Assembly: GCF_023703775.1 (NCBI RefSeq)
Contig: NZ_CP098514.1
Coordinates: 372,001 to 436,000, forward strand
Direction of reading: 5' to 3'
DNA from: Haloplanus sp. GDY1
GTDB lineage: Archaea > Halobacteriota > Halobacteria > Halobacteriales > Haloferacaceae
Length of the DNA: 64,000 bases
Shown in pieces: positions 24-54,003 of the stretch. Within the stretch, counting starts at the first letter, position 1; each line of letters starts with the position of its first letter. The position numbers and the translations under genes were made by a program. The notes under the pieces were generated by a model. It did no database searches, had not been told where the DNA came from, and was given only the letters and a program-made list of their open reading frames with translations.

Positions 24-99
24 GATCGTTCGTTGGATGCGGGATCACTTGAAACGAGGCGGCCCCGGCAGGGCGCGTTCGCGCGACCACCGATCCCCG

Positions 100-2058
100 T
101 CACGCGGGCGTTCCGTCGATCCCGGTCAGGAGCACGTAGAGACGGGTCTTTCCTTCGTACGCCGGCCGCCGTTCGGCGCCCCAGACTACCGATCCGCCCG
201 GATCCACCCGGTCGGCGATCTCGTTCACGAGGTCCCGCGCCTCGCCGGCCGTGAGGTCGGGACCGCCGGTGACGTGGACGAGCGCCGCCGATGCCTTCCG
301 GTAGTCGGCGTCGACGAGGGGATGCTTCAGCGCATCGTCCACGGCTCCGGTCTCGTCCCCGTTCTCGGTCTCGCCGACGAAGATCGCGGCCTCGCCGTCA
401 TCCTGCAGCACCGTCGCCACGTCCGAGAGATCCAGTTCGACGAGCGAGGTCTGGGCGACGGCTCCGCCGACGTCCCTGACCGTCTCCGCGATGATCTGAT
501 CCATCACGGACCGAGCCCTGTCGGTCGACAGGTCGGGCACGTGCTCGATCAGGTGGTCGTCGTCGAGTACGACGAGCGAATCGACTTCCGAGCGGAGTTC
601 CGTGACCCCTCTCCGTGCCACCTCGTCGCGGTCGGCGTCGAGCGGCGTCGACGCCACCCCGACGACGAGGGCATCCTGTTCGTTCGCGATTTCGGCCACG
701 GTCGGGGCGGTACCGGTGCCGGTCCCCCCGCCCATCCCGACGGTGACGAACACGAGGTCCGTCCCGTCGAGGACGTTCTCGATCGTCTCCCGAGCCAACT
801 CGGCCGAGCGTTCGCCCACGGACGGCTCCCCGCCGGCGTCGCTCCCCCGCGTGAGCGACTTGCCGACGGGGAGTTTCGCGTCGGCATCGATCGTCTGCAG
901 GTGCTGTTTGTCGGTGTTGATCGCGACCGTCTCGACGCCGTCGACGCCCATGTTGTCCAGCCGATCGACCGTGTTGCTGCCGGCATCGCCGACGCCGACG
1001 GTCGTGATGGTGGTGTCGGACGGGGATACCGCCGACCCGGCGTCCCGGTCCCGGTCCCGGTGGGTCGACACCGACCCGCCGGCGGCGCCCCCCGATGGCT
1101 CCGATCCGTCGCTGTCGAAGTTCGGAAGGAATCGATCCGGCCGGTTCCCCGTTCGAATGGCCCGGAGCGCGTCCGCGAAGTTCTCGACCGACCGGTATCG
1201 GGCGGTCTTGTCGCGTTCGAGCGCGTGGAGGACCGCGGCGTCCATCGCCGCCGTGACGTCTTCCCTGTGGGCACTCGGCGGCGGCGGCGCTTCGGATCCG
1301 ACGACGTCCCGAAGTACGCCGAGTCGGGTGCCGGTGTACGGCGGGTCGCCCGTGAGCATCGCGTACAGAAGGGTCCCGATCTGGTACACGTCGGTCAGGG
1401 TATCGGGATCGCCGAAGTCCGCGGGTTCGAACTGTTCGGGTGCCGCATACGTGACCGAGAGGCCGTCCGTCGCTCCGCTCTGCTCCGCGAGGACGCGAGC
1501 GAGCCCCCAGTCGGCGACTTTCGGCACGTCCCAGGAGTCCCCGGGGGTCTCGCGGAAGAGCACGTTCGCCGGCTTGAGGTCCAGATGAGCGATCCCGTAT
1601 CCGTGGGCGACCGCCACACCGCGACAGACACATTCACCGATCCAGAGCGCCTTCTGCAGTGGGAGCCCGTCGGGCGCGGATTCCAGCCGGCCGTCGAGGC
1701 TCCCCCCGTCCATGTACTCCAGTGCGATCCAGGGCCGACTCTCCCCCGTGTCGATCACGCCGACGACGTGTTCGAACTCCGACCAACGGGGCTTCCGTCG
1801 CTCCCGCGAGTCCACGGTCTCCCACCGTTCGGCCTCCGCGAGGAACTCCTCGACCGCGTCGACGGTCACCGTCTCCGGTGACAGTGGCTCCTTGAGTGCG
1901 ATCCGCTCCGGCGGATCGCCCCCGACGACGTCGGCTCTCGAAACGACGGCCTCTCCCCCGTGCCCGATCCGCTCGACGATCTCGATGTCTTCGTAGGTGA
2001 GTTCCCTACGTGGTGGACTCGACACTGTCGAGAGATCCGGTACCCGCGAATCCGTCAT
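100..2058 (-). CDS. Ser/Thr protein kinase fused to an FtsZ2-like tubulin-superfamily domain
   Basis: The 652-residue protein has two complete domains. Residues about 22-300 are a Hanks-type kinase: Gly loop IGHGGEAVV 31-39, ATP-anchoring Lys56, catalytic loop HLDLKPAN with Asp160, metal-binding DWG 183-185 and APE 206-208. HLD replaces HRD, making it a non-RD kinase. After a disordered acidic linker (about 305-348), residues 350-648 align with archaeal FtsZ2: G1 loop GVGDAGSNT 355-363, NTDKQHLQ 381-388, tubulin signature GGGTGTG 443-449, T7 loop ELDLSD 541-546, and the C-terminal domain ending [10 protein letters not shown]. The T7 Asn of NxDxxD is Glu541, G1 carries Asp358 in place of Gly, and no tail follows. 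There is no signal peptide or membrane segment, so it is cytoplasmic. The ATG start is supported by a TATA box 26 bases upstream. By inference it couples phosphorylation to a cytoskeletal or GTP-sensing module; the substrate is unknown. Confidence 0.95.
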
Positions 2059-2083
2059 GGGGTCGTCGTTCGCGGTCGTGGCG

Positions 2084-2091
2084 TATTAATT
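2084..2091 (-). promoter_or_regulatory. TATA box of the kinase-FtsZ gene
   Basis: AATTAATA on the minus strand lies 26 bases before the ATG at 2058. This spacing fits a leaderless haloarchaeal transcript and decides the start. Confidence 0.55.
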
Positions 2092-2153
2092 CCGTCGCGG
2101 TCTCCGTGTGTGGCCGTAACGTACATGACGGTGCCCCGCACTCATGCGCACGT

Positions 2154-2309
2154 ATGCCGAGCTGTCAGAACTGTGGCGCCTTCGTCACCGACGACTACGT
2201 CCGGGTGTTCGCCCCGACCGGCATGACCGAACCGCGTGTCTGTCCGAACTGTGAGGATCTGGTCCGCGACGGCGCGGACGTGCGACAGGCACGCGCGAGA
2301 CGCACCTGA
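2154..2309 (+). CDS. small zinc-ribbon protein (DUF7563-like)
   Basis: This 51-residue protein starts MPSCQNCGAFV and carries two CxxC knuckles, CQNC near the N-terminus and CPNC near residue 28, predicting one bound Zn. It matches a small haloarchaeal family that I recall as DUF7563. The function is unknown; proteins of this shape may bind nucleic acid or a partner protein. It is divergent from the kinase-FtsZ gene, with a 95-base gap that holds the kinase TATA box, and is followed closely by dphB. Confidence 0.8.
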   Translation: MPSCQNCGAFVTDDYVRVFAPTGMTEPRVCPNCEDLVRDGADVRQARARRT

Positions 2310-2336: not shown

Positions 2337-3131
2337 ATGCTCACCTTCGTCGGCCTCGGCCTCTACGACGAGCGGTCGATCACGGTCGAGGGACGCGACG
2401 CCCTCCGCGCGGCCGACCGCGCGTTCGCCGAGTTCTACACCAGTCGCCTCGTCGGCACCAGCGTCGAGGCCCTCGAAGCCCACCACGGCGTCGACATCGA
2501 GGTGCGGGACCGAGCGGGCGTCGAGCGGGACCCCGCGCCCATCCTCGACGCCGCCGAGTCGGACGACGTCGTCTTCATGACCGCCGGCGACGCCATGATC
2601 TCGACCACCCACGTCGACCTCCGCCTGCGCGCGGTCGACCGGGGAATCGACACCCGAGTGGTCCACGGCGTCACCGCGCAGTCCGCCGCCAGCGGCCTCA
2701 CCGGCCTCCAGAACTACCGCTTCGGCAAGGCCGTCACCCTCCCCTTCCCGCGCGCCCACGGCGGCGACGACGTGCCGGCCTCCGTCGTCGACGCCGTCGA
2801 GGCCAACCGGGAGCGCGGCCTCCACACCCTCGTCTACCTCGACATCAAGGTCGACGACGGCCGGGGGGCGGACGCGGGCGAGACGTTCATGACCGCCGAC
2901 GTCGCCGCCGACCTGCTGGCCGGGGAGTGGCCCGACTCCCTCGGCGTGGCCGTGGCCCGCGCGGGGAGTCCCGACCCCGTCGTCGTCGCCGACCGCCTCC
3001 GGGCGCTCGCGGATCGGGACTTCGGTTCCCCCTTGCACCTGCTGGTGTTGCCGGGCGAGGTCCACCACGTCGAGGCCGACGCGCTCCGGACGCTCGCGGG
3101 GGCGCCGCCCGACCTGCTTCCGGACGCGTGA
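2337..3131 (+). CDS. dphB: diphthine synthase
   Basis: This is an S-adenosylmethionine-dependent methyltransferase that methylates the modified histidine of elongation factor 2 during diphthamide synthesis. The 264 residues are the normal family length. The N-terminus MLTFVGLGLYDERSIT is the usual tetrapyrrole-methylase-fold opening. The internal segments FMTAGDAMISTTH and HGVTAQSAASGLTGLQNYRFG, and the late LHLLVLPGEVHHVEADAL, are typical of archaeal Dph5/DphB. The start is unambiguous, 27 bases after the zinc-ribbon gene. Confidence 0.95.
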   Translation: MLTFVGLGLYDERSITVEGRDALRAADRAFAEFYTSRLVGTSVEALEAHHGVDIEVRDRAGVERDPAPILDAAESDDVVFMTAGDAMISTTHVDLRLRAVDRGIDTRVVHGVTAQSAASGLTGLQNYRFGKAVTLPFPRAHGGDDVPASVVDAVEANRERGLHTLVYLDIKVDDGRGADAGETFMTADVAADLLAGEWPDSLGVAVARAGSPDPVVVADRLRALADRDFGSPLHLLVLPGEVHHVEADALRTLAGAPPDLLPDA

Positions 3132-4426: not shown

Positions 4427-5506
4427 TCAGGGGACGCGGACCGTCACGTCGGGCATGCCGCCCATCAGGCCGCCGAAGGCCGTCTCGTACCCCTCGTGTC
4501 GGGCGGTCTGTGGCTGGACCGTCACCGAGACGGTGAGGGTGTCGCCCGACTGGACGCCGTCGACGACCGCGCCGTAGTGATAGCCGAGGTCGGGGTCGAG
4601 CGTCCGGTCGAGCGGTCCCGCGTACACCGTTTCGCCGTCGCGTTCGAGGCGACCGGACAGCCCCATCGCCGGGATCACCATGCGGTTGTACGGCGTGCGT
4701 GCCGACACCGCGAGGTAGGTGCCCTCGGCGTCGACGCCCGCAGGCGGCGACTCCAGAGCCGTCACGACCAGCCGGGCGTCGTTGCTCGTCCCCGACCCGA
4801 GGACCCGTCCCGGCAGGTTCGATTCGAGCGGCGCGAACGACGAGGGCAGCATCTCCATCGGCATCGGGTCGACCGCGCCGGACGTGGCGACCCGTTCCTC
4901 GTCGAGGGTGCGGAAGCTGATCTCCTCTTTCGCCGACTGGCTGTACTCGAAGGGAATCGACAGGGTCGCGGGCTCCGCGAACCGGCCGGCGAACGCGCCC
5001 GTCCGCCGCGTGGCCATCGCCCCGACGCTCAGCCTGACCTCGTAGGTCCCATCGCCCTCCAGCCCGAAGTTCGCCCCGTAGTGAAAGCCCATCGGCTGGG
5101 AGAGCATGGGGTAGATGGCCTCCTGGGAGACGAGCGACCCGTCGCGGTAGATCTCCGCCGACAGCCCGGTGTCCGGGAGGACCTGCTCCGTCTCGGGGTC
5201 CCAGACGCTCGCCATCAGGTGGACGGCGTCGTCGCTCTCGATGTCGGTTCGCGAGACGTCCTCCCCGGTGACGTTCCAGAACCGGTGGGGGTAACTGTAC
5301 ATGAGCCCCGCCGCGTAGTCGCCGCTCGTCGCGGTCCCCACCATCGACATCCCCTCGACGTGACTCGGGTAGTAGACGCCGTCGGGGCGGCCCTCCGGGA
5401 CGGGCGGCACCCCCACGGCCCGCGTCTCGACCAGGCTGGAACAGCCCGACAGCGAGAGCGCCCCCGTCAGGGCGGCCCCCGTTCGGAGCAGTTCGCGGCG
5501 CTTCAT
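4427..5506 (-). CDS. Tat lipoprotein, P19/Tp34-like metal-uptake type
   Basis: The 359-residue protein begins with a twin-arginine signal (KRRELLRTGAALTG) ending in the lipobox LSGC, so it should be Tat-exported and lipid-anchored on the outside. The mature part, about residues 45-190 and 200-355, looks like two related beta-rich domains. Each has YHYG/FHYGA-type segments and several Met and His residues (SHVEGMSMVG, YSYPHRFW, PMGFHYGANF). This recalls periplasmic Fe/Cu-binding P19/Tp34 proteins. The family link is by inference. It lies 58 bases downstream of the DyP-like gene on the same strand, which suggests a shared extracellular metal-handling role. Confidence 0.6.
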   Translation of the reverse strand: MKRRELLRTGAALTGALSLSGCSSLVETRAVGVPPVPEGRPDGVYYPSHVEGMSMVGTATSGDYAAGLMYSYPHRFWNVTGEDVSRTDIESDDAVHLMASVWDPETEQVLPDTGLSAEIYRDGSLVSQEAIYPMLSQPMGFHYGANFGLEGDGTYEVRLSVGAMATRRTGAFAGRFAEPATLSIPFEYSQSAKEEISFRTLDEERVATSGAVDPMPMEMLPSSFAPLESNLPGRVLGSGTSNDARLVVTALESPPAGVDAEGTYLAVSARTPYNRMVIPAMGLSGRLERDGETVYAGPLDRTLDPDLGYHYGAVVDGVQSGDTLTVSVTVQPQTARHEGYETAFGGLMGGMPDVTVRVP

Positions 5507-5564
5507 ACCCCCGCTCGGGGCTCGCCGGGAAAACCGGTTCTGGTCCGGTCGTCGAACGCCGCCC

Positions 5565-6854
5565 TCACGCCGGGCGCGGCGTCGGCAGCGCCCGGTGTCG
5601 ACGCGGCGGGAGGAGGAAGTACCCCCGACGGCGGACGAAGATGTACTCCAGGATGCCGTTGTTGACGCGCTGGCGCACCGCCGGCGTCACCTCCGTCACG
5701 TCCGTTCCGTTCATCGCGCGGCGGACCTCCTCGAACGCCGAGATGCGTCGCTGGAGCGACGGGAAATGCAGGCTCGCGACCGCCTGCTCCGAGCCGATGT
5801 CGTCGGTCGACTCGAAGTGCCGGCGGAGCAGGCGCACGTTCCCCTCGTCGTCGCGGTTCGCCCGCGCCGCCTTCTGGGCGTGGCCGACGCGGCCGTACTC
5901 CCGGGCGTGGTCGGCGACGTCGTCGACGAACCGGTCGATCCCGCTCGACGACCCGAGGTTGCTTCCGACCCCCTCGACGAGGCCCTCCGCGGCGTGGCCC
6001 GGGCTGAACAGCTCCATCACCCGCTCCTCGTAGGACTGCTCGCCGTACCAGTCGGCCAGCCGTTGCCGGAGGTTGGCGATCACCTCGGTCGTCCCGCCCG
6101 CGAACGGCCCGGAGTCGATGGTGACGTACGACTCGGTCGCCTGGTTGCCCCGGAACCCCGCCTCGAACCCCATGAACAGCGGCGACGCCTCGGGGACGGG
6201 CTTCGAGTCCGGAATCCCCGCGGCGTCCTGGTGTTCGGCGGGCAGTCCCGCGCCGACGAAGCCCGTCCGCCGGGAGGCCACCGTCGCCACCTCGGTGAGC
6301 GGTGGGACGGACACGCCGTTTGCCGACGCCCGCTCCCCCCGGAGCGCCCGGTCGGCCGCGAGGACGACGTCGGCCCGGTCGCTCGCCAGGTGGAGCACCG
6401 CGTCCTGCCGGTCGAAGGTCGGCGACTCGAACGGCGACAGCGCCGTCGGCTCCGGGAGGTCGATCCCCTCGGGCAGCGACTCGTCGAACCGGTCGAAGTA
6501 GGCCGGCGAGTAGGCCATCGAGTGGAGGAGCCCCTCGTGGCTCCACGCGTAGGCTCGGTCCAACGCGTCGAGCGACGCCGCGAGCGCCGCCCGGTCGTCG
6601 GCGTTCGGCGGCCCGTCGAACGGCAGGTCGAGGTACAGGAGGATCTGGTGGGCTGGAAGCTGCGTGTTGCCGTGTTCGTCGTGGCGGACGTACTCGCGCC
6701 AGGCGTGCTGGCTCGACGGCTTGGCTTCGGGGTCACCGGTCGGCACCGGATCGTCGCCGGCGCGGTCCAGACAGGCGCTCAGGGCGCTCGCGCCGCCCAT
6801 CGCGACGGCGGCCTTCAGGACGGCCCGTCGCGAGCGGTCGCCTTCGGGGGACAT
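5565..6854 (-). CDS. Tat-exported DyP/EfeB-like peroxidase homologue (DUF7405-like)
   Basis: The 429 residues open with RSRRAVLKAAVAMGGASALSAC, a Tat signal with a lipobox Cys at 28, predicting an extracellular lipoprotein. The body is all alpha/beta. Segments such as FMGFEAGFRGNQATESYVTI, RVMELFSPGHA and GRVGHAQKAARAN echo dye-decolourising peroxidases, including a possible haem His in GHAQKAA. I do not see a clean GxxDG motif, so peroxidase activity is uncertain. Together with the downstream P19-like lipoprotein it resembles an EfeO/EfeB-like iron module without the permease. The C-terminus is unusually Arg/Pro-rich. Confidence 0.6.
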   Translation of the reverse strand: MSPEGDRSRRAVLKAAVAMGGASALSACLDRAGDDPVPTGDPEAKPSSQHAWREYVRHDEHGNTQLPAHQILLYLDLPFDGPPNADDRAALAASLDALDRAYAWSHEGLLHSMAYSPAYFDRFDESLPEGIDLPEPTALSPFESPTFDRQDAVLHLASDRADVVLAADRALRGERASANGVSVPPLTEVATVASRRTGFVGAGLPAEHQDAAGIPDSKPVPEASPLFMGFEAGFRGNQATESYVTIDSGPFAGGTTEVIANLRQRLADWYGEQSYEERVMELFSPGHAAEGLVEGVGSNLGSSSGIDRFVDDVADHAREYGRVGHAQKAARANRDDEGNVRLLRRHFESTDDIGSEQAVASLHFPSLQRRISAFEEVRRAMNGTDVTEVTPAVRQRVNNGILEYIFVRRRGYFLLPPRRHRALPTPRPA

Positions 6855-45628: not shown

Positions 45629-46657
45629 ATGACCGAAACCGACTACGACGTCGCGGTCGTCGGCGGCGGGCCGGCCGGCCTGACCGCCGCACTCTACACC
45701 ACCCGCCTCGGGCTGGACACCGTCGTCGTGGACCGCGGCGGCGGCCGCGCGGCGATGATGCAGGACACGCACAACGTCATCGGCGTCACCGAGGACGTCT
45801 CCGGCGTCGAGTTCCTCCGGACCGCCCGCGAGCAGGTGCAGGCCTACGGCGCGACCTACCACCGCGGGTTCGTCTCCGCCATCGGCGACGGCGACGACCG
45901 ACGGTTCGCCCTCGACGCCGACGACGCGACGTTCGGTGCCGACCGGGTCGTCCTCGCGACCGGCTTCTCCGACGCGAAACCCGACCCGCCGCTCCCCCCG
46001 ACCGGCCGCGGCCTCCACTACTGCCTCCACTGCGACGCCTACATGTTCGTCGACGAGTCGGTGTACGTGATGGGTCACGGCGACAGCGCCGCCTACGTCG
46101 CCATGATCATGCTCAACTTCACCGACGAGGTCGACCTGCTCACCCGCGGCGACGACCCCACATGGGGCGACGAGACCGACCGCATGCTCCGCGCCCACCC
46201 CGTCGACGTGATCCACGAGGACGTGACGGGCGTGAACCGCGGCCCCGACGGCTGGCTGGAGAGCTTCGAGTTCGAGGACGGCACCGTCCGCGAGTACCGC
46301 GGCGGCTTCCCGATGTACGGGTCCGAGTACAACAACGACCTCGCGGCCGACCTCGGCTGTGACCTGAACGACGACGGCACCGTCGTCGCCGACGACCACG
46401 GCCGGACGAGCGTCGACGGGGTCTACGCCGTCGGCGACCTGGTGCAGGGCCACAACCAGATTCCCGTGGCCATGGGTCAGGGCGCGAAGGCCGGCATCGC
46501 GATCCACATGGACCTCCGTCCGTTCCCCCGGAGCGTCGACGACATCGAGGCGGCGGGTCCGGTCGACGCCGACGAGGTGCCGGCGATGTCCGAGTCGCTG
46601 CGGGAGACCGCGCGGGCGTTCCGGGAGGCAGCCACCGAGGCGGCCGCGGACGACTGA
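45629..46657 (+). CDS. thioredoxin reductase-like FAD/NAD(P) oxidoreductase
   Basis: The 342-residue protein's FAD site is VVGGGPAGLTAALYTTRLG, and the second dinucleotide site near MGHGDSAAYVAMI is less perfect. A CxxC pair, YCLHCDAY (about 131-138), sits where thioredoxin reductase has its redox-active CATCD. The C-terminal FAD motif is DGVYAVGDLVQGHNQIPVAMGQGAKAG. It probably reduces a thioredoxin-like or ferredoxin partner. A C-terminal helical extension of about 40 residues is unusual. It lies just upstream of the tRNA-Gly island boundary. Confidence 0.88.
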   Translation: MTETDYDVAVVGGGPAGLTAALYTTRLGLDTVVVDRGGGRAAMMQDTHNVIGVTEDVSGVEFLRTAREQVQAYGATYHRGFVSAIGDGDDRRFALDADDATFGADRVVLATGFSDAKPDPPLPPTGRGLHYCLHCDAYMFVDESVYVMGHGDSAAYVAMIMLNFTDEVDLLTRGDDPTWGDETDRMLRAHPVDVIHEDVTGVNRGPDGWLESFEFEDGTVREYRGGFPMYGSEYNNDLAADLGCDLNDDGTVVADDHGRTSVDGVYAVGDLVQGHNQIPVAMGQGAKAGIAIHMDLRPFPRSVDDIEAAGPVDADEVPAMSESLRETARAFREAATEAAADD

Positions 46658-46706
46658 CGGCGGCAAACGTAACTGCCTTATTCCGCGACCCTGAAGCGAC
46701 GCCTGG

Positions 46707-46777
46707 GCGCCGGTGGTCTAGTGGTAGGACCTGAGCCTTCCAAGCTCATGGCCCGGGTTCAAATCCCGGCCGGCGCA
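46707..46777 (+). tRNA. tRNA-Gly(TCC)
   Basis: The 71-base tRNA has acceptor GCGCCGG pairing with CCGGCGC plus discriminator A. The anticodon stem TGAGC/GCTCA encloses loop CTTCCAA with anticodon TCC. The T arm is CCCGG-GTTCAAAT-CCGGG-like. Its 3' half is the left boundary repeat of the island that follows. Confidence 0.95.
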
Positions 46778-46779
46778 CT
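46737..46779 (+). repeat. left attachment-site copy within tRNA-Gly
   Basis: The 43 bases from the anticodon loop of tRNA-Gly to two bases past its end recur at 54350-54392 with two mismatches. This is the classical footprint of site-specific integration into a tRNA gene that leaves the tRNA intact. Confidence 0.8.
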
Positions 46780-47162
46780 ACGACCTTTTACTGCGCTCGC
46801 TTCGCTCGCTTGTAAAAGCTCGATCAAAAGCCTTCGAGTCTCTCGATGGTCGACTCTCGGCCCGCTCGCTCACTCCGTTCGCTCGCGGTACTCGGACTCA
46901 ACCTACCCAACGATTCATCGAGGCTTCCTGTGAGGCTTCGAAGAAACGAACGAGTCCAGCCGCGAGTTCCAGATCGCCGCGATGATGGTTGGCGTCGATC
47001 TTTTCCTCGCTTCCACGGGAGTTGCGTACAATCCCGCATTCAAGCGAACGAGGTTCGTGATGAACACCGGAAGCAAAGTCGTCCTCTATCGCCTTCGCTA
47101 CGTCTGTGGGAACGAGTCGTAGCCCGCGCGGCGAACGCGAACGGTGTGAGCAGAACGACCGT

Positions 47163-47183
47163 GGTTCGAATCCGGCCGGCGCA
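47163..47183 (+). repeat. internal remnant of the tRNA-Gly 3' end
   Basis: GGTTCGAATCCGGCCGGCGCA resembles the T arm and acceptor of tRNA-Gly(TCC), with one substitution and one missing C. It may be a third, degenerate attachment site, implying a nested or composite insertion. Confidence 0.5.
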
Positions 47184-47370
47184 TCCGCAGACCGGCGTCT
47201 TCTGGTTGGTTTCCGGCTTCTACAGCAAGAACGGAAGCAAAGCAGAGTACGGCCTCGAAAACGACGAAGACGAAACGAAGGAACTCGGGTGTCCGTTCTG
47301 CAGCGTATCGAATCCGTCCGGACACAGTGGATGCGTTGAATTGACCTCTCGACCGATTCCATCCCTTACC

Positions 47371-47380
47371 TATTTAAATT
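47371..47380 (+). promoter_or_regulatory. TATA box of the MNT-HEPN-like operon
   Basis: TATTTAAATT, 29 bases before the ATG at 47409, is a near-consensus archaeal TATA box. It supports the ATG rather than the GTG at 47394. Confidence 0.6.
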
Positions 47381-47408
47381 CAAGTCACTCACAGTGACTC
47401 GTGTCTCT

Positions 47409-48077
47409 ATGAGTGACGAAAAAGAGTGGGGTGTCGTTCTCACGATGCCGTTGCCGGAGGAACAGGTGTTCCGGTACCGGGCAACCGGTGACGTCCTCGA
47501 ACTACTTTACCGAAACCCGCATCGTGAGTTCGCAGTGACGGAGCTCCGAGAGGTCACGGGTCACGGCGGTAAGTCGGTCGACAACGCGATAAAAACGCTG
47601 GATGGCCTCGGTCTCATCGAGAGAAAAACCGACGGGAGAAAAACCCTGATTCGGATCGACCACTCGCGTATCGAGAAACCGGACGATGAGTACCTCGAGA
47701 TACCACAACGAGCGTTCAGAGAGCCGGTACGGGAATTCGTACGGGAAGCCAGAGATCGGCAGGGAGAGAACTTGGTCGGCATCGTCCTGTTCGGAAGCGT
47801 CGCCCGCGGGAACGCAGACAGGGCTAGCGACATCGACATTCAAGTCATAGTAGCGGACGATCTCACGGCGGCCCGGCGTGACCTCCAAGACGTTCGGCAG
47901 GATATCGAGAAACGGAAATTCGACGGCGAACGATACGAACTACAGGTCCTCGTCGAGTCCACAAGAAGCGCCACGAGCTACGGCGAAAAGCTTCGAGAGA
48001 TCTTCTCGGAAGGGATCGTACTGCACTCGACGGACGAACTCGACGGCGTACGGGAGGCGGTCTTCGGTGGAAGATAG
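47409..48077 (+). CDS. HTH-nucleotidyltransferase (MNT) protein, probable antitoxin
   Basis: In the 222 residues, a winged helix spans about 22-85 (TGDVLELLYRNPHREFAVTELREVTGHGGKSVDNAIKTLDGLGLIERK). A minimal nucleotidyltransferase domain with GSVARGNADRASDIDIQVIV at about 126-145 carries the GS...SDID catalytic motif. MNT partners of HEPN toxins neutralise them by AMPylation. The fused HTH may give autoregulation. It overlaps the next gene by eleven bases. Confidence 0.85.
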   Translation: MSDEKEWGVVLTMPLPEEQVFRYRATGDVLELLYRNPHREFAVTELREVTGHGGKSVDNAIKTLDGLGLIERKTDGRKTLIRIDHSRIEKPDDEYLEIPQRAFREPVREFVREARDRQGENLVGIVLFGSVARGNADRASDIDIQVIVADDLTAARRDLQDVRQDIEKRKFDGERYELQVLVESTRSATSYGEKLREIFSEGIVLHSTDELDGVREAVFGGR

Positions 48078-48561
48078 CGATATAGCGGACATTCTCGACG
48101 ACGTGCAGACCCTCTTCGAAAGACCTGGCGATAGTTTCGAGGAGGCGCTCGACGTAGACGATGCCACGCTCCTACAGCTACGGAAAGCCTGTAGATTGAT
48201 CGACGCAGCACAGTTCCTCCGAGAAGAAGACGGATACTACACCGTGATCGTCGAGGCTTCCTTCGCTGCGATAGAGCGAACGATCCAGTTCTACCTGCTC
48301 GACAACGACCTTCTCCACGAGGACGAGTATATCGACCACGAGAACGTCTACAGCCGAGGCGTGAATGCAGGTCTCTACGACGAGGAACTCGCCGGGAAGC
48401 TCACGAACCTCTGGCGGAACAACCGTTCAGACACGTATTACCGAGAAGGCATAGCTACCGAGGCCCGAGCCGAGAAGATGCTCGAACTGGCCGAAGGGAT
48501 TCACCACTACGTCCTCCAACTCGCAGGAGAGGGCCACGAATGCGTCTGTACACTATCATAA
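48067..48561 (+). CDS. HEPN-like protein, probable toxin partner of the MNT protein
   Basis: The 164-residue all-helical acidic protein begins at a GTG inside the MNT gene (VEDSDIADILDDVQTLFERPG). Helices about 30-60 and 65-90 carry YTVIVEASFAAIERTIQFYLLDND. The segment WRNNRSDTYYREG near 120-132 sits where HEPN RNases have R-x4-6-H, but Tyr replaces the His. It may be a HEPN variant. The fused gene order strongly suggests a toxin-antitoxin or similar pair. Confidence 0.65.
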   Translation: MEDSDIADILDDVQTLFERPGDSFEEALDVDDATLLQLRKACRLIDAAQFLREEDGYYTVIVEASFAAIERTIQFYLLDNDLLHEDEYIDHENVYSRGVNAGLYDEELAGKLTNLWRNNRSDTYYREGIATEARAEKMLELAEGIHHYVLQLAGEGHECVCTLS

Positions 48562-48580
48562 CAACTCAGTGAACGCAGAA

Positions 48581-51076
48581 CTACACCTCCTCACGATCGA
48601 ATTGAGCTTTAGGACGGAGACGCACCAATAGATCGAGATCATATTGACGTATTCGTTCCCAGAGCAACACTGCAGGCGGGAGTGCGATCACCGCCGCCAA
48701 GAACGAATAGGTGACGCTCAAGCCAATCAGGACACCGAAGTTGCCGAGAATCGGGGTAATGGCTAGTGCGAGCGCGCCCGTCCCCAGAGCGGTTGTCAGC
48801 ATACTTCCGAATAGTGCGCCGCCGGTTCCAGTCAGCGTTACCATCATCGCTTCGTGTGCGCCTGTCGTCGCATCGTATTCGTCAATAAATCGGTGGGTCG
48901 TATGGACCGAGTAGGCGATTCCAACCCCCACTGAGATAGAGAGGATCGTTGCTGTCAGTGCGTTCAGCGTGATGCCCATATATCGCATCGTCCCGACCAA
49001 GAATGCGATTGCAATCAGGATCGGGAAGACATTAACCACTCCGAGCAGTGGTTTCCGTTCCAAGACACCGTAGATGATCACGAGGAACCCAGCAGTCAAT
49101 CCGACCGCTATGACGAGTCCCTGAATTGCCGACTGGAAGATACGATCCATCACCGCCGCAAGGACGACGACGCTCCCCGTGGCCGTCGCTTCGAACTGGA
49201 GCCTGTCTGCTAATGTAGACCCATCAGTTGTCACCTCTGTCTGTAAGGCATCGGGGTCAGTCTGATATTCGACCTGTGCGGACCGGTAATCCTCGGTCAG
49301 GTATTGCTTGGCCCGTTCACTCGCCGAGGAGGTGAACAGTTCGTCGTAAATTCGTTCGAGATTCCGGTCGGGAATCCCGTTGTCGTTCTGGTCGTTCCGG
49401 GCGACCAAGGCGGCGAACTCTTCGTTTCGATTCGCGTGGGATCTGATGACGGTCACGATGCTCTGTGTCTCTGCCTGCCCGCCGGGTCCAACTGCAAGTG
49501 ACTCCGGAGGATTGTCGTTCGGAGCGGCGAGGGCTTCGAGGGCGTGATCCTGTTTGAAGTTCCCTTCGACATATATCGTCACAGTGTCACTCTGGCCGCT
49601 CCCAAAGTCGTCGTTGAGCAAGTTGATCGTCGACGTGATGGTATACTCACCTGGACTAACGGCCTCAGGTAACTCCGTGAGGTAGGCTGGAATCTCCTCG
49701 GGCGGAAGGAAGTCCTCGTTTTCGAACGAGGTGCCGACGCCGGACCCATACGCACCCATGATACCACCTGACAGGAGTAGTCCGACGACGATGACCGTCG
49801 GAGCGTACTGGCTCACCTGTGCGGGAAACGCTAGCACTCGTCCGAGGACGGAGTCCTCAGACGCAATCGGGGTGGAGTTGAACTCCGGAACCCCGAGACG
49901 CGTACGGACGTCATCGCTCACCAACTTGGCCGCGGGGAGGAACACTCCGAAGATGAAGAATGTGAAGAGAATACCAACTGCTGAAGCGATGCCCAAGTTC
50001 CGAATCGGTGTCAGGGTAGAGATAACGTTCGCACCGAATCCGAACACTGCAGTCACGGTGACGATAATGAACGCGACGATGAGCTGGTTGTTCGCTTCTC
50101 GCATCGCTTCAACCGCTTCGAACCCGCGTTCTGTCTCTTCTCGATAGCGATTGATGATGTGAATACCGAAGTCGACGCCAACAGCAAGCAGTAACACCGG
50201 GACCGAGATCATCTGTTGGCTGAACGGGATCCCTGCGTATCCGAGGAATCCGAACGTCCAGATGATCGTCATCACGAGCGCGACCAGTCCCAGCAGTACG
50301 TCGATGGGATCACGGTATGCGACCACCAAGAAGAACAGTAACAGTAGTATCACTACTGGCATCACGATCAGAAGCGAATCGGACATCGATTGCCGTATCT
50401 CCGCTTCGGTAGTCCCCGACCCGAACGCACGAACGTCGCCCGGCATATCGTTAGCAACCGCTTGGAGACCCGTCTGGACGGCAGTCAGATCGTCGAAACT
50501 CTCGGGGAAGTCATGCGAGATCGTCGTGATCGATGCAGACGCCGAGACGCTGGTCGGATTGAAATCGTTTGAGACCAATCCGGTAAGTCGGGACTCCCCT
50601 TCGAGCTCTCGAACAGCCTGTCTGATTTCGGACGGGGACGCACCTTCGAGCGTTCGCCGGTACGCTTCCGGCGTTGTCGCTGACGGATTTAGATGCTGTG
50701 CAATGATCGGAGCCGGGCCACGAGCCGATTCCATCCGAAGGTCATCACGTTCCGCAACGCGCTCGAGAAGGCGTGCGTCACGGACGAGTGCTCCTTTGGT
50801 CAGGACGTTGCTGTCCGTCCGAATGAGTTGTGTCGTGTCCTGCGTGTCAGCCTGAAACGCCCCCTCGAACTTCTCGGTGACTTCGTCTTCGGCCTCCTGT
50901 TCCGGTAGTCCTTCGGTGAACGAGTCGAGGCCGCCGGCGCTCACTTGTACAGACCCTAAGCCGCCGATGAAGACCCCCGTAACAAGCAGAAATACGACGA
51001 TAACCGCTCGTGGTCGGTCCACGATTGTCGTGTTGAGGCGTTCTGTCGCCGTTTCAACCTCGTCCGCCAGTGACAT
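48581..51076 (-). CDS. RND-superfamily (MmpL/HpnN-like) exporter
   Basis: The 831-residue protein has two repeats, each with one leading membrane helix, a large external domain and five or so helices. GVDFGIHIINRYREE and GVGIAYSVHTTHRFIDEYD are the paired helix-4 motifs of RND/SSD proteins. Such archaeal RND pumps move lipids or hydrophobic compounds. Its ATG overlaps the upstream COG1361-like gene stop by one base (TGATG), forming a two-gene operon under the 52733 operator. Confidence 0.92.
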   Translation of the reverse strand: MSLADEVETATERLNTTIVDRPRAVIVVFLLVTGVFIGGLGSVQVSAGGLDSFTEGLPEQEAEDEVTEKFEGAFQADTQDTTQLIRTDSNVLTKGALVRDARLLERVAERDDLRMESARGPAPIIAQHLNPSATTPEAYRRTLEGASPSEIRQAVRELEGESRLTGLVSNDFNPTSVSASASITTISHDFPESFDDLTAVQTGLQAVANDMPGDVRAFGSGTTEAEIRQSMSDSLLIVMPVVILLLLFFLVVAYRDPIDVLLGLVALVMTIIWTFGFLGYAGIPFSQQMISVPVLLLAVGVDFGIHIINRYREETERGFEAVEAMREANNQLIVAFIIVTVTAVFGFGANVISTLTPIRNLGIASAVGILFTFFIFGVFLPAAKLVSDDVRTRLGVPEFNSTPIASEDSVLGRVLAFPAQVSQYAPTVIVVGLLLSGGIMGAYGSGVGTSFENEDFLPPEEIPAYLTELPEAVSPGEYTITSTINLLNDDFGSGQSDTVTIYVEGNFKQDHALEALAAPNDNPPESLAVGPGGQAETQSIVTVIRSHANRNEEFAALVARNDQNDNGIPDRNLERIYDELFTSSASERAKQYLTEDYRSAQVEYQTDPDALQTEVTTDGSTLADRLQFEATATGSVVVLAAVMDRIFQSAIQGLVIAVGLTAGFLVIIYGVLERKPLLGVVNVFPILIAIAFLVGTMRYMGITLNALTATILSISVGVGIAYSVHTTHRFIDEYDATTGAHEAMMVTLTGTGGALFGSMLTTALGTGALALAITPILGNFGVLIGLSVTYSFLAAVIALPPAVLLWERIRQYDLDLLVRLRPKAQFDREEV

Positions 51077-52725
51077 CAGTTGCGCCTCCAGTAGACGACA
51101 CCACCGAAGACGATCACCAACGAACCCAACCCCAGGAAGAGTGGGATGGGCAGCCCCCCGCCGCTCTGAGGGGCCGCATCGAGCGGCTTCCTGAACGTAT
51201 CCGATAGGTGAGTATTGCCATCAGTATCCGTGTACCGGAAGTCGAACGAGATCGGATACGTGCTCCCCGCTGTCGCGGAGGACGCCGCCGTCACTTGGAA
51301 AGCCAGCGTCGCAGACTCACCGGGTTCCAGTGACTCGATATAGCTCGTGTCCGAGGCACCGGCGCTGAGTGGGTCGTCGGCAAACAGCCGCGCCTCGATG
51401 TCGGTGACCGTTTCATCGAGGTTGTTTGTTACCTCGACCGAGACGGTCCGTGAGTTCCCCACGGTAATCGTCCGGTCCGAAACTGCGAGTTCGAATTCGT
51501 CCCGGGCCGGTTCGATAGTGCCCGAGAGGTCGAGTTTGTCGTAGGTCCGTCGATCCCCGTCCCCGTCCCGATACTGAACATCTACGTTGAGTAGTTTCGC
51601 TCCGACTTGGGCTTCACTGGTAATCTCCAGCGGGAGCCGGAAGGATTTGGACTCACCGGGATCGAGAGGTCCAACGGCAGTGGAATCCTCGCTTGGGATG
51701 ACTGACTCCGGATTGTCGACGGGACGAATCGCCACACTCCGTACTGTGTTGGGGCCCGTATTCTCGATAGTGCCAGTGATTGCTCCGTCTTCGCCCACTC
51801 GGAGCGACGAGGAAACGTCCGAGAAGGCGAACGACTGCTCGGGAATCGACTGGACAGTCGTCGTGATCGGGTCGGATGTACGACCAATCCCATCAGTGTC
51901 GTCGTAATTCACCGTCAAATCCAGTGAGTATGCGCGGACGGCGGAGCCGGAACCAAGCGCGGCATTGTACGTGATAGTCCGGTTCTCGCCTGGTTCCCAG
52001 TCACCGACGGATGCCGTCGAGGACGTGTCGCCGGATTCGAAAGTCAAGGAACTACTCTTGGACTCTGCATTCACGCTCGCACCTCTCGCAACGTCCGAGC
52101 CAGTATTTCGGAGCGTGAACGAAATATCGCTGTCGTCTCCGACCTGGGTCGCCGCGTTCGTTTCGACGATTTCGAACCGAGCGTCTTCCTTGATTTGGAT
52201 CGTTATCGAGTCCGTCTTCGTTCGCGTAGAATCACTTCCCTCGGTGGGTCCGCTGGGGCCATAGCGAACGTGACGGGTGTGCGAATACTCATACTCGACG
52301 GGGAGTCGGTACGTTCCCGGTTCGGCATCTTCTGGAACGGTGATCGAGAGTGTTTTTTCCGTACTCCCTGGTGGGAAGTTTCCAACGGATACCTGTCCGG
52401 TTTGGACGTCGATTGGTGCATTCTCGTCATCGACTTCGAAAGTTAACCCTCTCGCAGTCATCACCTCGTCTTCGTACTGCGATGGACCGTGCTTGATGAT
52501 CAAGCCACGATTGACGACCGAAATCGTGAGTTCGTCAGTAGTGCCAGCCGAAAGCGTCCCGGACGAAGCTGCAAACGTGATCTCCGGGTGCCCAACGACA
52601 TCTCCGGACTGTGATGCCTGAGCAGTTGCAATAGCTGGGATCGCACCGACAACGAAGCCCATGACGAGAACAGTGGTGAGAGCGACGGCCAACGACCGTG
52701 AGTTACGAGATGTATTCCGTGTCAT
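51076..52725 (-). CDS. secreted COG1361/CARDB-like repeat protein with C-terminal anchor
   Basis: The 549-residue protein starts MTRNTSRNSRSLAVALTTVLVMGFVVGAIPAIATAQA, a Sec-type signal. Several Ig-like NEW3/CARDB repeats follow (SAGTTDELTISVVNRG, VGDDSDISFTLRNTGSDVARG, RVGEDGAITGTIENTGPNTVRS, TVGNSRTVSVEVTNNLDET). It ends with one membrane helix, PLFLGLGSLVIVFGGVVYWRR. It may act as an external partner or adaptor of the RND exporter encoded downstream. Confidence 0.85.
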   Translation of the reverse strand: MTRNTSRNSRSLAVALTTVLVMGFVVGAIPAIATAQASQSGDVVGHPEITFAASSGTLSAGTTDELTISVVNRGLIIKHGPSQYEDEVMTARGLTFEVDDENAPIDVQTGQVSVGNFPPGSTEKTLSITVPEDAEPGTYRLPVEYEYSHTRHVRYGPSGPTEGSDSTRTKTDSITIQIKEDARFEIVETNAATQVGDDSDISFTLRNTGSDVARGASVNAESKSSSLTFESGDTSSTASVGDWEPGENRTITYNAALGSGSAVRAYSLDLTVNYDDTDGIGRTSDPITTTVQSIPEQSFAFSDVSSSLRVGEDGAITGTIENTGPNTVRSVAIRPVDNPESVIPSEDSTAVGPLDPGESKSFRLPLEITSEAQVGAKLLNVDVQYRDGDGDRRTYDKLDLSGTIEPARDEFELAVSDRTITVGNSRTVSVEVTNNLDETVTDIEARLFADDPLSAGASDTSYIESLEPGESATLAFQVTAASSATAGSTYPISFDFRYTDTDGNTHLSDTFRKPLDAAPQSGGGLPIPLFLGLGSLVIVFGGVVYWRRN

Positions 52726-52732
52726 CTTGAAT

Positions 52733-52752
52733 TTGACTGAGTATTCAATCAA
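52733..52752. promoter_or_regulatory. palindromic operator of the exporter operon
   Basis: TTGACTGAGT-ATTCAATCAA is a near-perfect 20-bp palindrome eight bases before the ATG at 52725, fitting a repressor site over the start region. A matching site is at 54011-54030. The TetR-like gene lies between them and is its likely reader. Confidence 0.65.
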
Positions 52753-52954
52753 AAACTGAGTGGACGGATTAGTGTATCGGTTTCGATCAGCAGAATGCGT
52801 GGCCATGCAGGGGAGAGCTAGTCGGGTCAGACACGGCTTTCGGCTCCCGGAGGTGGATATCTCCGCCACGGAGACGGCCAGATGGGCTCAACCGCGACAC
52901 CCAAGTGATTCAGATAGGGCAATCGCTAATTAGGAGCAAGAGAAATCAGGCAGT

Positions 52955-53602
52955 ATGGAAAATCGGGGCCCGCTCTTTGTCGATGAGCCTGACGATACCA
53001 AGATAGCGATCTTGAAAGCTACGTTTGATGCCCTTGCCGAACACGGATATGCTGACCTCACGATTGACCGAATCAGCCAGCATTTTTCCAAGTCTGAAGG
53101 ACTAGTCTTCTACCACTATGATGGAAAGGACGACGTTCTTTTGGATCTTCTTGACTACCTACTTGAACGGTTCGTACAGGTTGGAATGCCAGTTTCTAAC
53201 GATGGAGATCCAGAAACCCGACTCCGAAACCTCCTCGATCAGGTCATCCCCGAAACTACCGAACAACAAAGCCGAGATTATGAAAGGGTACTGACTGAAT
53301 TGCGGATGCGGGCAGCACAAGACGAAGAATTTCGAGAGTGTTTCAATCAGTCTCAAGACGTTTTCCGTGAAACGATACAGGAAATAATACGAGATGGCAT
53401 CGAATCCGGTGATTTTAGAGAGACGGATCCGGAACTGGTCGCAGACTTTCTGATAACACTCATTAGTGGCGGAATATTTGATCGGGTGACGGCAGGCATC
53501 TCTCGACCGATTCAATCAGAGCTGGATAACTATATCCAGTACCGACTCTTGCGCGACGAGGAGCACGGGCATAATGGAGACGAGTCAGACGACACCTCTT
53601 GA
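52955..53602 (+). CDS. TetR/AcrR-family transcriptional regulator
   Basis: The 215-residue protein's N-terminal HTH spans about 14-60 (DTKIAILKATFDALAEHGYADLTIDRISQHFSKSEGLVFYHYDGKDDVLLDLLDYLLERF), the TetR DNA-binding pattern. A helical ligand domain follows (about 70-200), ending in a short acidic tail. It is divergent from the exporter operon and probably represses it in the absence of the exported compound. It may be autoregulated. Confidence 0.9.
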   Translation: MENRGPLFVDEPDDTKIAILKATFDALAEHGYADLTIDRISQHFSKSEGLVFYHYDGKDDVLLDLLDYLLERFVQVGMPVSNDGDPETRLRNLLDQVIPETTEQQSRDYERVLTELRMRAAQDEEFRECFNQSQDVFRETIQEIIRDGIESGDFRETDPELVADFLITLISGGIFDRVTAGISRPIQSELDNYIQYRLLRDEEHGHNGDESDDTS

Positions 53603-53736
53603 AGTACTTCGTAGTCTCCGTAGCTACCCCATCGCTCAACTTACCGGCGATCAAGAGACGGACCAGTATCGGTCACATTACGACGACCGGTTCCACCTTC
53701 TCTCACGAAGCCTCTGTGTTCTCGGAACGGAACTGA

Positions 53737-54003
53737 CTATTCCCCGGCGGAGTCCGCGTGATCCTCGACGAGGACATCCACACCCTCCGGTGACACCTCA
53801 AGACGAATCCCTTCGACGGTAACCTGGACGGCGATATCCCCATCTACTGACGCCAACAGTTGTTCGAGCGCCTCTGCATCAACGTACTCATAGAGCTGAT
53901 AGGTGTCGTCTTCGATTCCACACGCATCCAAAGTCTCGGTAATCTCGACGAGGATGGCATCTGGCTCATTCGAACAACCGGTTGAGGGGGAATTCCGTGT
54001 CAT
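53737..54003 (-). CDS. HalOD1 output-domain protein
   Basis: The 88-residue protein matches HalOD1 (about 15-80): ILVEITETLDACGIEDDTYQLYEYVDAEALEQLLASVDGDIAVQVTVEGIRLEVSPEGVDVLV. HalOD1 is a haloarchaeal output module without known catalysis. The start MTRN and its upstream 70 bases copy those of the exporter operon, including the operator, so it appears to be in the same regulon. Confidence 0.85.
   Translation of the reverse strand: MTRNSPSTGCSNEPDAILVEITETLDACGIEDDTYQLYEYVDAEALEQLLASVDGDIAVQVTVEGIRLEVSPEGVDVLVEDHADSAGE

Follow-up and report, generated by a model that had tools for sequence, protein, structure and literature searches.

A haloarchaeal Ser/Thr kinase of a modular family joined in one gene to an apparently degenerate FtsZ2-like domain

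Introduction

A single gene of Haloplanus sp. GDY1 encodes a Hanks-type serine/threonine kinase followed by an FtsZ domain, and the fusion is confirmed as genuine, in one open frame of 652 amino acids. The reading that best fits the evidence, to which a probability of roughly 0.45 may be attached, is that the protein is a one-off member of a modular family of haloarchaeal Ser/Thr kinases, and that its second module, a degenerate FtsZ2-like domain, would serve for targeting, oligomerizing or sensing. The fusion offers a direct handle on the possible control of archaeal division by a kinase, and it draws attention to a large and little-studied haloarchaeal family in which one kinase domain is combined with many borrowed modules. 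These modules include copies of core-machinery proteins, and the reuse of housekeeping proteins as the sensors or baits of kinases is consequently an idea that can be tested.

The fusion gene and its locus

The window is the whole 64,000-nucleotide stretch of DNA that was analysed, and the features discussed here are collected in Table 1. The frame runs on the minus strand from an ATG at 2058-2056 to a stop codon at 102-100 and contains no internal stops, in agreement with an earlier sequence-only reading, which had placed an uninterrupted gene at 100-2058, giving no strand, and whose quoted residues (K56, D160, DWG 183-185 and GGGTGTG 443-449) are all correct in the translation. The Pfam matches all exceed the curated cut-offs (Pkinase 1.4e-21, Tubulin GTPase 1.6e-32, FtsZ_C 3.3e-19), and NCBIfam and PDB searches with the protein return a Ser/Thr kinase and then FtsZ. 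The G+C content at the three codon positions is coding-like in both the kinase half (0.73/0.49/0.83) and the FtsZ half (0.74/0.46/0.88), which resemble each other, and the TATA-like element stands at the distance from the ATG that is expected for a leaderless haloarchaeal gene.

Table 1. Features at the fusion locus, in coordinates of the window
Feature	Coordinates	Strand	Extent or position	Basis or remark
Kinase-FtsZ fusion gene	100..2058	minus	652 aa, ATG start, TGA stop	Single open frame and Pfam matches in both halves
Hanks-type Ser/Thr kinase domain	1135..1986	minus	about aa 25-308	Intact motifs, Pfam, AlphaFold2
Linker, Asp/Ser/Gly-rich	1024..1134	minus	aa 309-345	Disorder predicted for 315-349 (AlphaFold2)
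Probable degenerate FtsZ2-like domain (GTPase half and FtsZ_C)	115..1023	minus	aa 346-648	Pfam, alignment, fold
Tubulin signature GGGTGTG (T4), conserved	712..732	minus	aa 443-449	
T7 loop ELDLSD	421..438	minus	aa 541-546	Invariant Asn replaced by Glu541, both Asp retained
TATA-like ttaatac	2083..2089	minus	25-31 nt 5' of the fusion ATG	Sequence; putative leaderless-type promoter
uspA-side conserved element CACTTGAAACGA	46..57	plus	Left edge of the inserted segment	Alignment to empty sites of sister species
DUF7563-side conserved element GGCCGTAACGTACAT	2112..2126	plus	Right edge of the inserted segment	Alignment to empty sites of sister species
DUF7563 small zinc-ribbon gene	2154..2309	plus	Divergently oriented neighbour	Conserved in all sister species
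TP_methylase family gene (dph5-like)	2337..3131	plus	Conserved neighbour	Synteny anchor

The corresponding site is empty in the sister species. In nine of 11 of these, the gap between uspA and the DUF7563-dph5 pair measures 87-181 bp and contains no homologue of the fusion; of the remaining two genomes, one has a contig that ends near the site and the other has no uspA nearby. The fusion gene fills precisely this gap, between the two conserved elements, and inspection by eye revealed no flanking repeats of note at the inserted segment. Since the syntenic site is empty in the sister species, the fusion is a gained gene, and not two resident genes that have run together; its loss in all of the other sister species is less likely. 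An ordinary ftsZ1 lies elsewhere in the genome, beside secE and spt5 (neighbours assigned by Pfam), and a separate ftsZ2 and further tubulin-family genes are also present away from the fusion. The artefact for which the sequence-only reading had allowed, a frameshift joining two genes, is ruled out, as is a join made in assembly, by the single frame, the separate ftsZ1 and ftsZ2, and the empty syntenic site.

The empty site also bears on the possibility that the gene is a recent chance fusion which has little or no function and is heading towards decay. The presence of the fusion in only one genome and the very long branch of its FtsZ half (see below) are consistent with this explanation as well, but the 652-codon frame is intact and retains all of the kinase motifs, GGGTGTG and both T7 aspartates, and it has a coding-like composition in each half and a promoter-like TATA element, so that a decaying gene of this kind is considered quite unlikely.

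Other regions also yielded observations. The G+C content of the window drops from about 0.69 to 0.53-0.62 at 46000-54000, which suggests a foreign or mobile segment. Elsewhere in the same genome (C1, 60-62 kb; L142:4404-5618 and 5204-6805), two adjacent, divergent genes of the tubulin/FtsZ family stand in tandem, one a frame of 405 aa and the other inside a frame of 534 aa; neither is FtsZ1 or FtsZ2.

The kinase half and its family

The Gly-rich loop, the VAIK lysine (K56), the HRD-type aspartate and asparagine (D160 and N165, in HLDLKPAN), the DFG-type aspartate (D183, in DWG) and APE (206-208) are all intact, and with every catalytic motif present and a clear Pfam match the Hanks-type kinase is as complete as it had appeared to be in the sequence-only reading. 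AlphaFold2 predicts a well-folded domain, with block pLDDT values mostly of 75-97.

The domain belongs to a modular haloarchaeal family: it is 40-62% identical to 30 relatives with diverse partners, the values being 52-62% for the nearest relatives and 40-48% for the paralogues in its own genome, where the family has 12 members. Members of the family also cluster on Halomicrobium replicons, and the catalytic motifs are invariant across the members compared. The partners of the nearest kinases are a winged helix combined with a 2Fe-2S ferredoxin, a PQQ propeller, or DUF7527, and those of more distant members are HEAT repeats, plastocyanin, laminin-G, or Hsp70 with GrpE; none of the other family members examined has an FtsZ partner. 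Since kinases as close as the nearest relatives carry different partners, the exchange of partner modules beside a constant kinase domain is the rule in this family, and FtsZ is one more such partner.

Three of the relatives may be described individually. In the genome that carries the fusion, a kinase of the same family is joined in one frame to the C-terminal part of Hsp70 and a GrpE-like segment, which makes it a fusion of chaperone and kinase (C1, about 1.23 Mb; L127:1-2310), and another is fused to a plastocyanin-like domain (L120:1456-3045). A Halomicrobium plasmid encodes a fusion in which the partner is a 2Fe-2S ferredoxin combined with a winged helix (L090:1336-3516). The ferredoxin- and plastocyanin-fused proteins are possibly redox-sensing kinases.

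The FtsZ half

The description of the second half as FtsZ2-like is favoured by its identity, which is 53% to haloarchaeal FtsZ2 and 41% to FtsZ1. Haloarchaeal FtsZ2s are at least 81% identical among themselves, and archaeal FtsZ2s from outside the class are 56-75% identical to the FtsZ2 that is resident in the genome of the fusion. A quick tree of 84 rows groups the FtsZ half with haloarchaeal FtsZ2, and in a tree of 44 rows its placement has a support of 64.7 with alternatives that are not rejected; because the branch is very long in both trees, the phylogenetic position of the fusion is not firmly fixed. A plasmid of Haloarcula sinaiiensis, pHsi204, encodes an FtsZ that is about 50% identical to the FtsZ half (L214:3917-5107).

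The fold was predicted separately from that of the kinase half, using AlphaFold2, with a pLDDT of 78 for the domain and mostly above 85 for its GTPase half, and it has a TM of 0.89 to the FtsZ of M. jannaschii (2vap). The Tubulin GTPase and FtsZ_C domains and the GGGTG[T/S]G signature place the protein in the FtsZ/tubulin superfamily, while its score with the TIGR00065 ftsZ model, 276.7 bits, falls just under the equivalog cut-off of 295.2 for a division FtsZ.

Conserved positions are altered throughout the domain. Changes affect 23 of the 81 positions that are invariant across archaeal FtsZ1 and FtsZ2, and, in the part that begins at H7 and runs to the C-terminus, 45 of 101 invariant positions. 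Among the phosphate loops, T2 is unchanged (0 of 8 positions) and T1, T3 and T4 are changed at 2 of 8, 4 of 10 and 1 of 12 positions respectively; the most altered loops are T5 (6 of 8), which is remodelled and contains a deletion, T6 (6 of 10) and T7/H8 (9 of 16). Particular substitutions include G358D in T1, at what may be, as a lead only, the position of tubulin Gln11; N500D in T6 and F516R in H7 (a conserved Phe), at positions which presumably contact guanine in FtsZ; and N541E in T7. As a result of the last of these, the T7 loop has the form ExDxxD, in which D543 and D546 are retained, and not the form NxDxx[D/E] of the FtsZ motif for GTP hydrolysis (PMC12583498).

The protein stops four residues past the FtsZ fold and has no C-terminal tail or peptide. 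All haloarchaeal FtsZ2s inspected have a tail of 23-75 aa, and a conserved DV[IV][RK] peptide lies at its end or just beside it; nearly all of their termini read (N)G[LV]DVIR. SepF, a membrane anchor, and FtsZ2 interact (PMC8187382), in Odinarchaeota through the C-terminal tail of FtsZ2 (PMC12583498), and since the fusion lacks this tail, its FtsZ module should not be anchored to the membrane by that route.

Taken from its sequence, then, the FtsZ half is probably best regarded as a degenerate FtsZ2-like domain. Where the sequence-only reading had seen a full-length FtsZ with a complete C-terminal domain, the globular core is indeed complete, but it is not followed by the C-terminal tail and peptide that FtsZ2 has, and the completeness does not extend to the active site, in which several catalytic or guanine-pocket positions are altered. 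The same reading had envisaged kinase activity placed on, or controlled by, a GTP-driven polymer or dimer. A self-standing polymer of this kind is something that the predicted full core fold, the largely retained phosphate loops and the presence of D543 and D546 would allow. With the hydrolysis motif broken, the further substitutions N500D, F516R and G358D, T5 to T7 the most altered of the loops, T5 remodelled with its deletion, so many invariant positions changed from H7 onwards, and the anchor tail and its peptide gone, however, such a polymer is highly improbable.

A domain of this kind could instead be the output of the kinase, which would phosphorylate it in cis and thereby switch an inhibitor of division whose effect is to poison or cap the filaments of FtsZ2. 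A tail-less and altered FtsZ that is still predicted to fold could have this effect, and bacterial kinases regulate FtsZ (PMC6052341, PMC12747378, PMC9823044), but the second modules of the family (propeller, HEAT, ferredoxin) have the look of inputs or scaffolds, and not of kinase substrates, which leaves this arrangement very unlikely.

Distribution of the fusion

The sequence-only reading had proposed a domain-architecture search over archaeal proteomes; the genome searches made here find the fusion once and do not find it conserved in the samples covered. No second full-length kinase-FtsZ fusion was detected in 12 genomes of the genus and 170 of the family, in 146 and 125 genomes of other families, in 391-392 genomes at the level of order and class, in 393 of the phylum, among the best 80 GTDB contig loci, or among the plasmids and viral contigs searched, these being overlapping samples in which the large runs scored only a few best candidates per genome, so that rare or very divergent fusions could escape. 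An earlier description of such a protein was likewise not found in the literature searched, and the covalent joining of a Ser/Thr kinase to FtsZ is apparently undescribed, as far as these searches reach.

A different frame that includes FtsZ was encountered elsewhere in the phylum, in four genomes that belong to one other family (f25), where a domain of the D-aminoacyl-tRNA deacylase DTD2 (PF04414) precedes FtsZ1, with a long region between them, in a single frame of 881-925 aa (L240:100-2874, L241:2452-5118, L242:501-3143 and L243:507-3278; domains assigned by Pfam on L197:1452-4001). Since the four genomes represent three genera and the frame is conserved among them, this is apparently a true fusion.

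Proposed role of the FtsZ module

If the protein is a modular kinase with a borrowed FtsZ domain, as is preferred here, the module would no longer serve division and would instead provide targeting or oligomerization. It might dock on or co-assemble with FtsZ filaments, or with itself, in a manner that may or may not depend on nucleotide, and docking would place kinase domains side by side and lead to their activation in trans. The activated kinase would then phosphorylate proteins of the division ring or report the status of the ring, and division proteins would be its likely substrates. The conserved residues that the module has lost on its longitudinal face could equally have abolished assembly with FtsZ.

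It is conceivable, though somewhat doubtful, that the protein is a division-sensing or guard kinase, in which an FtsZ2-derived bait or docking module reads the state of the ring, or detects an attack on FtsZ, and signals by phosphorylation. It would then be one of several kinases whose sensors are copied from housekeeping proteins (FtsZ, Hsp70-GrpE, ferredoxin, cupredoxin). In the pure guard version, the module would be a decoy for viral or competitor factors that attack FtsZ, and the binding of an attacker would activate the kinase. Related kinases do carry copies of other housekeeping proteins, among them the Hsp70 with GrpE of the same genome and the ferredoxin of L090; the FtsZ module has lost its tail and is altered at catalytic positions; the gene is patchy across genomes; inactive-enzyme decoys and rare FtsZ-superfamily domains have been proposed in conflict systems (PMC7159879); and the integrated decoys of immune receptors provide a parallel. 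The neighbours of the fusion, however, are housekeeping genes, with no obvious functional partner found among them and no defence island seen adjoining the gene, and the PADLOC matches reflect generic kinase similarity only, so that a guard kinase by analogy with these systems is judged unlikely.

Comparison with known systems

Among known proteins, haloarchaeal FtsZ2 is nearest to the FtsZ half by identity, and it shares the fold, GGGTGTG and both T7 aspartates. The fusion differs from it in the N-terminal kinase, in the altered T1, T5, T6, T7 and H7, and in the absence of the C-terminal tail and peptide, and a genuine ftsZ2 is present besides in its genome.

A link between a Ser/Thr kinase and FtsZ is also found in bacteria, where RqkA of Deinococcus radiodurans phosphorylates FtsZ (PMC6052341) and PrkC of Bacillus subtilis is reported to do so too (PMC12747378). 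The bacterial kinases are separate proteins, as the sequence-only reading had noted and as the RqkA precedent bears out, whereas the fusion is archaeal and its substrate is putative.

The predicted NTP-dependent conflict systems, which come mostly from multicellular prokaryotes, contain FtsZ/tubulin, FtsK or MinD domains, some of them predicted to be inactive (PMC7159879). The fusion resembles these in that division domains occur as effectors or decoys and kinases are present, but their core parts are not seen beside the gene.

The modular kinases of haloarchaea have in common with the fusion the kinase domain, the HLDLKPxN and DWG motifs, and the plan of a kinase plus a partner, and they differ from it in the identity of the partner, which in no other member examined is FtsZ, and in order: in several of them the partner precedes the kinase, and in the fusion FtsZ follows it. 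The possible new system of the sequence-only reading is not supported: the fusion has been seen once, and its kinase half is one of a family in which partner domains are exchanged. It is best classed as a known kind of modular kinase in which the combination of domains is new, and not as a new cytoskeletal system.
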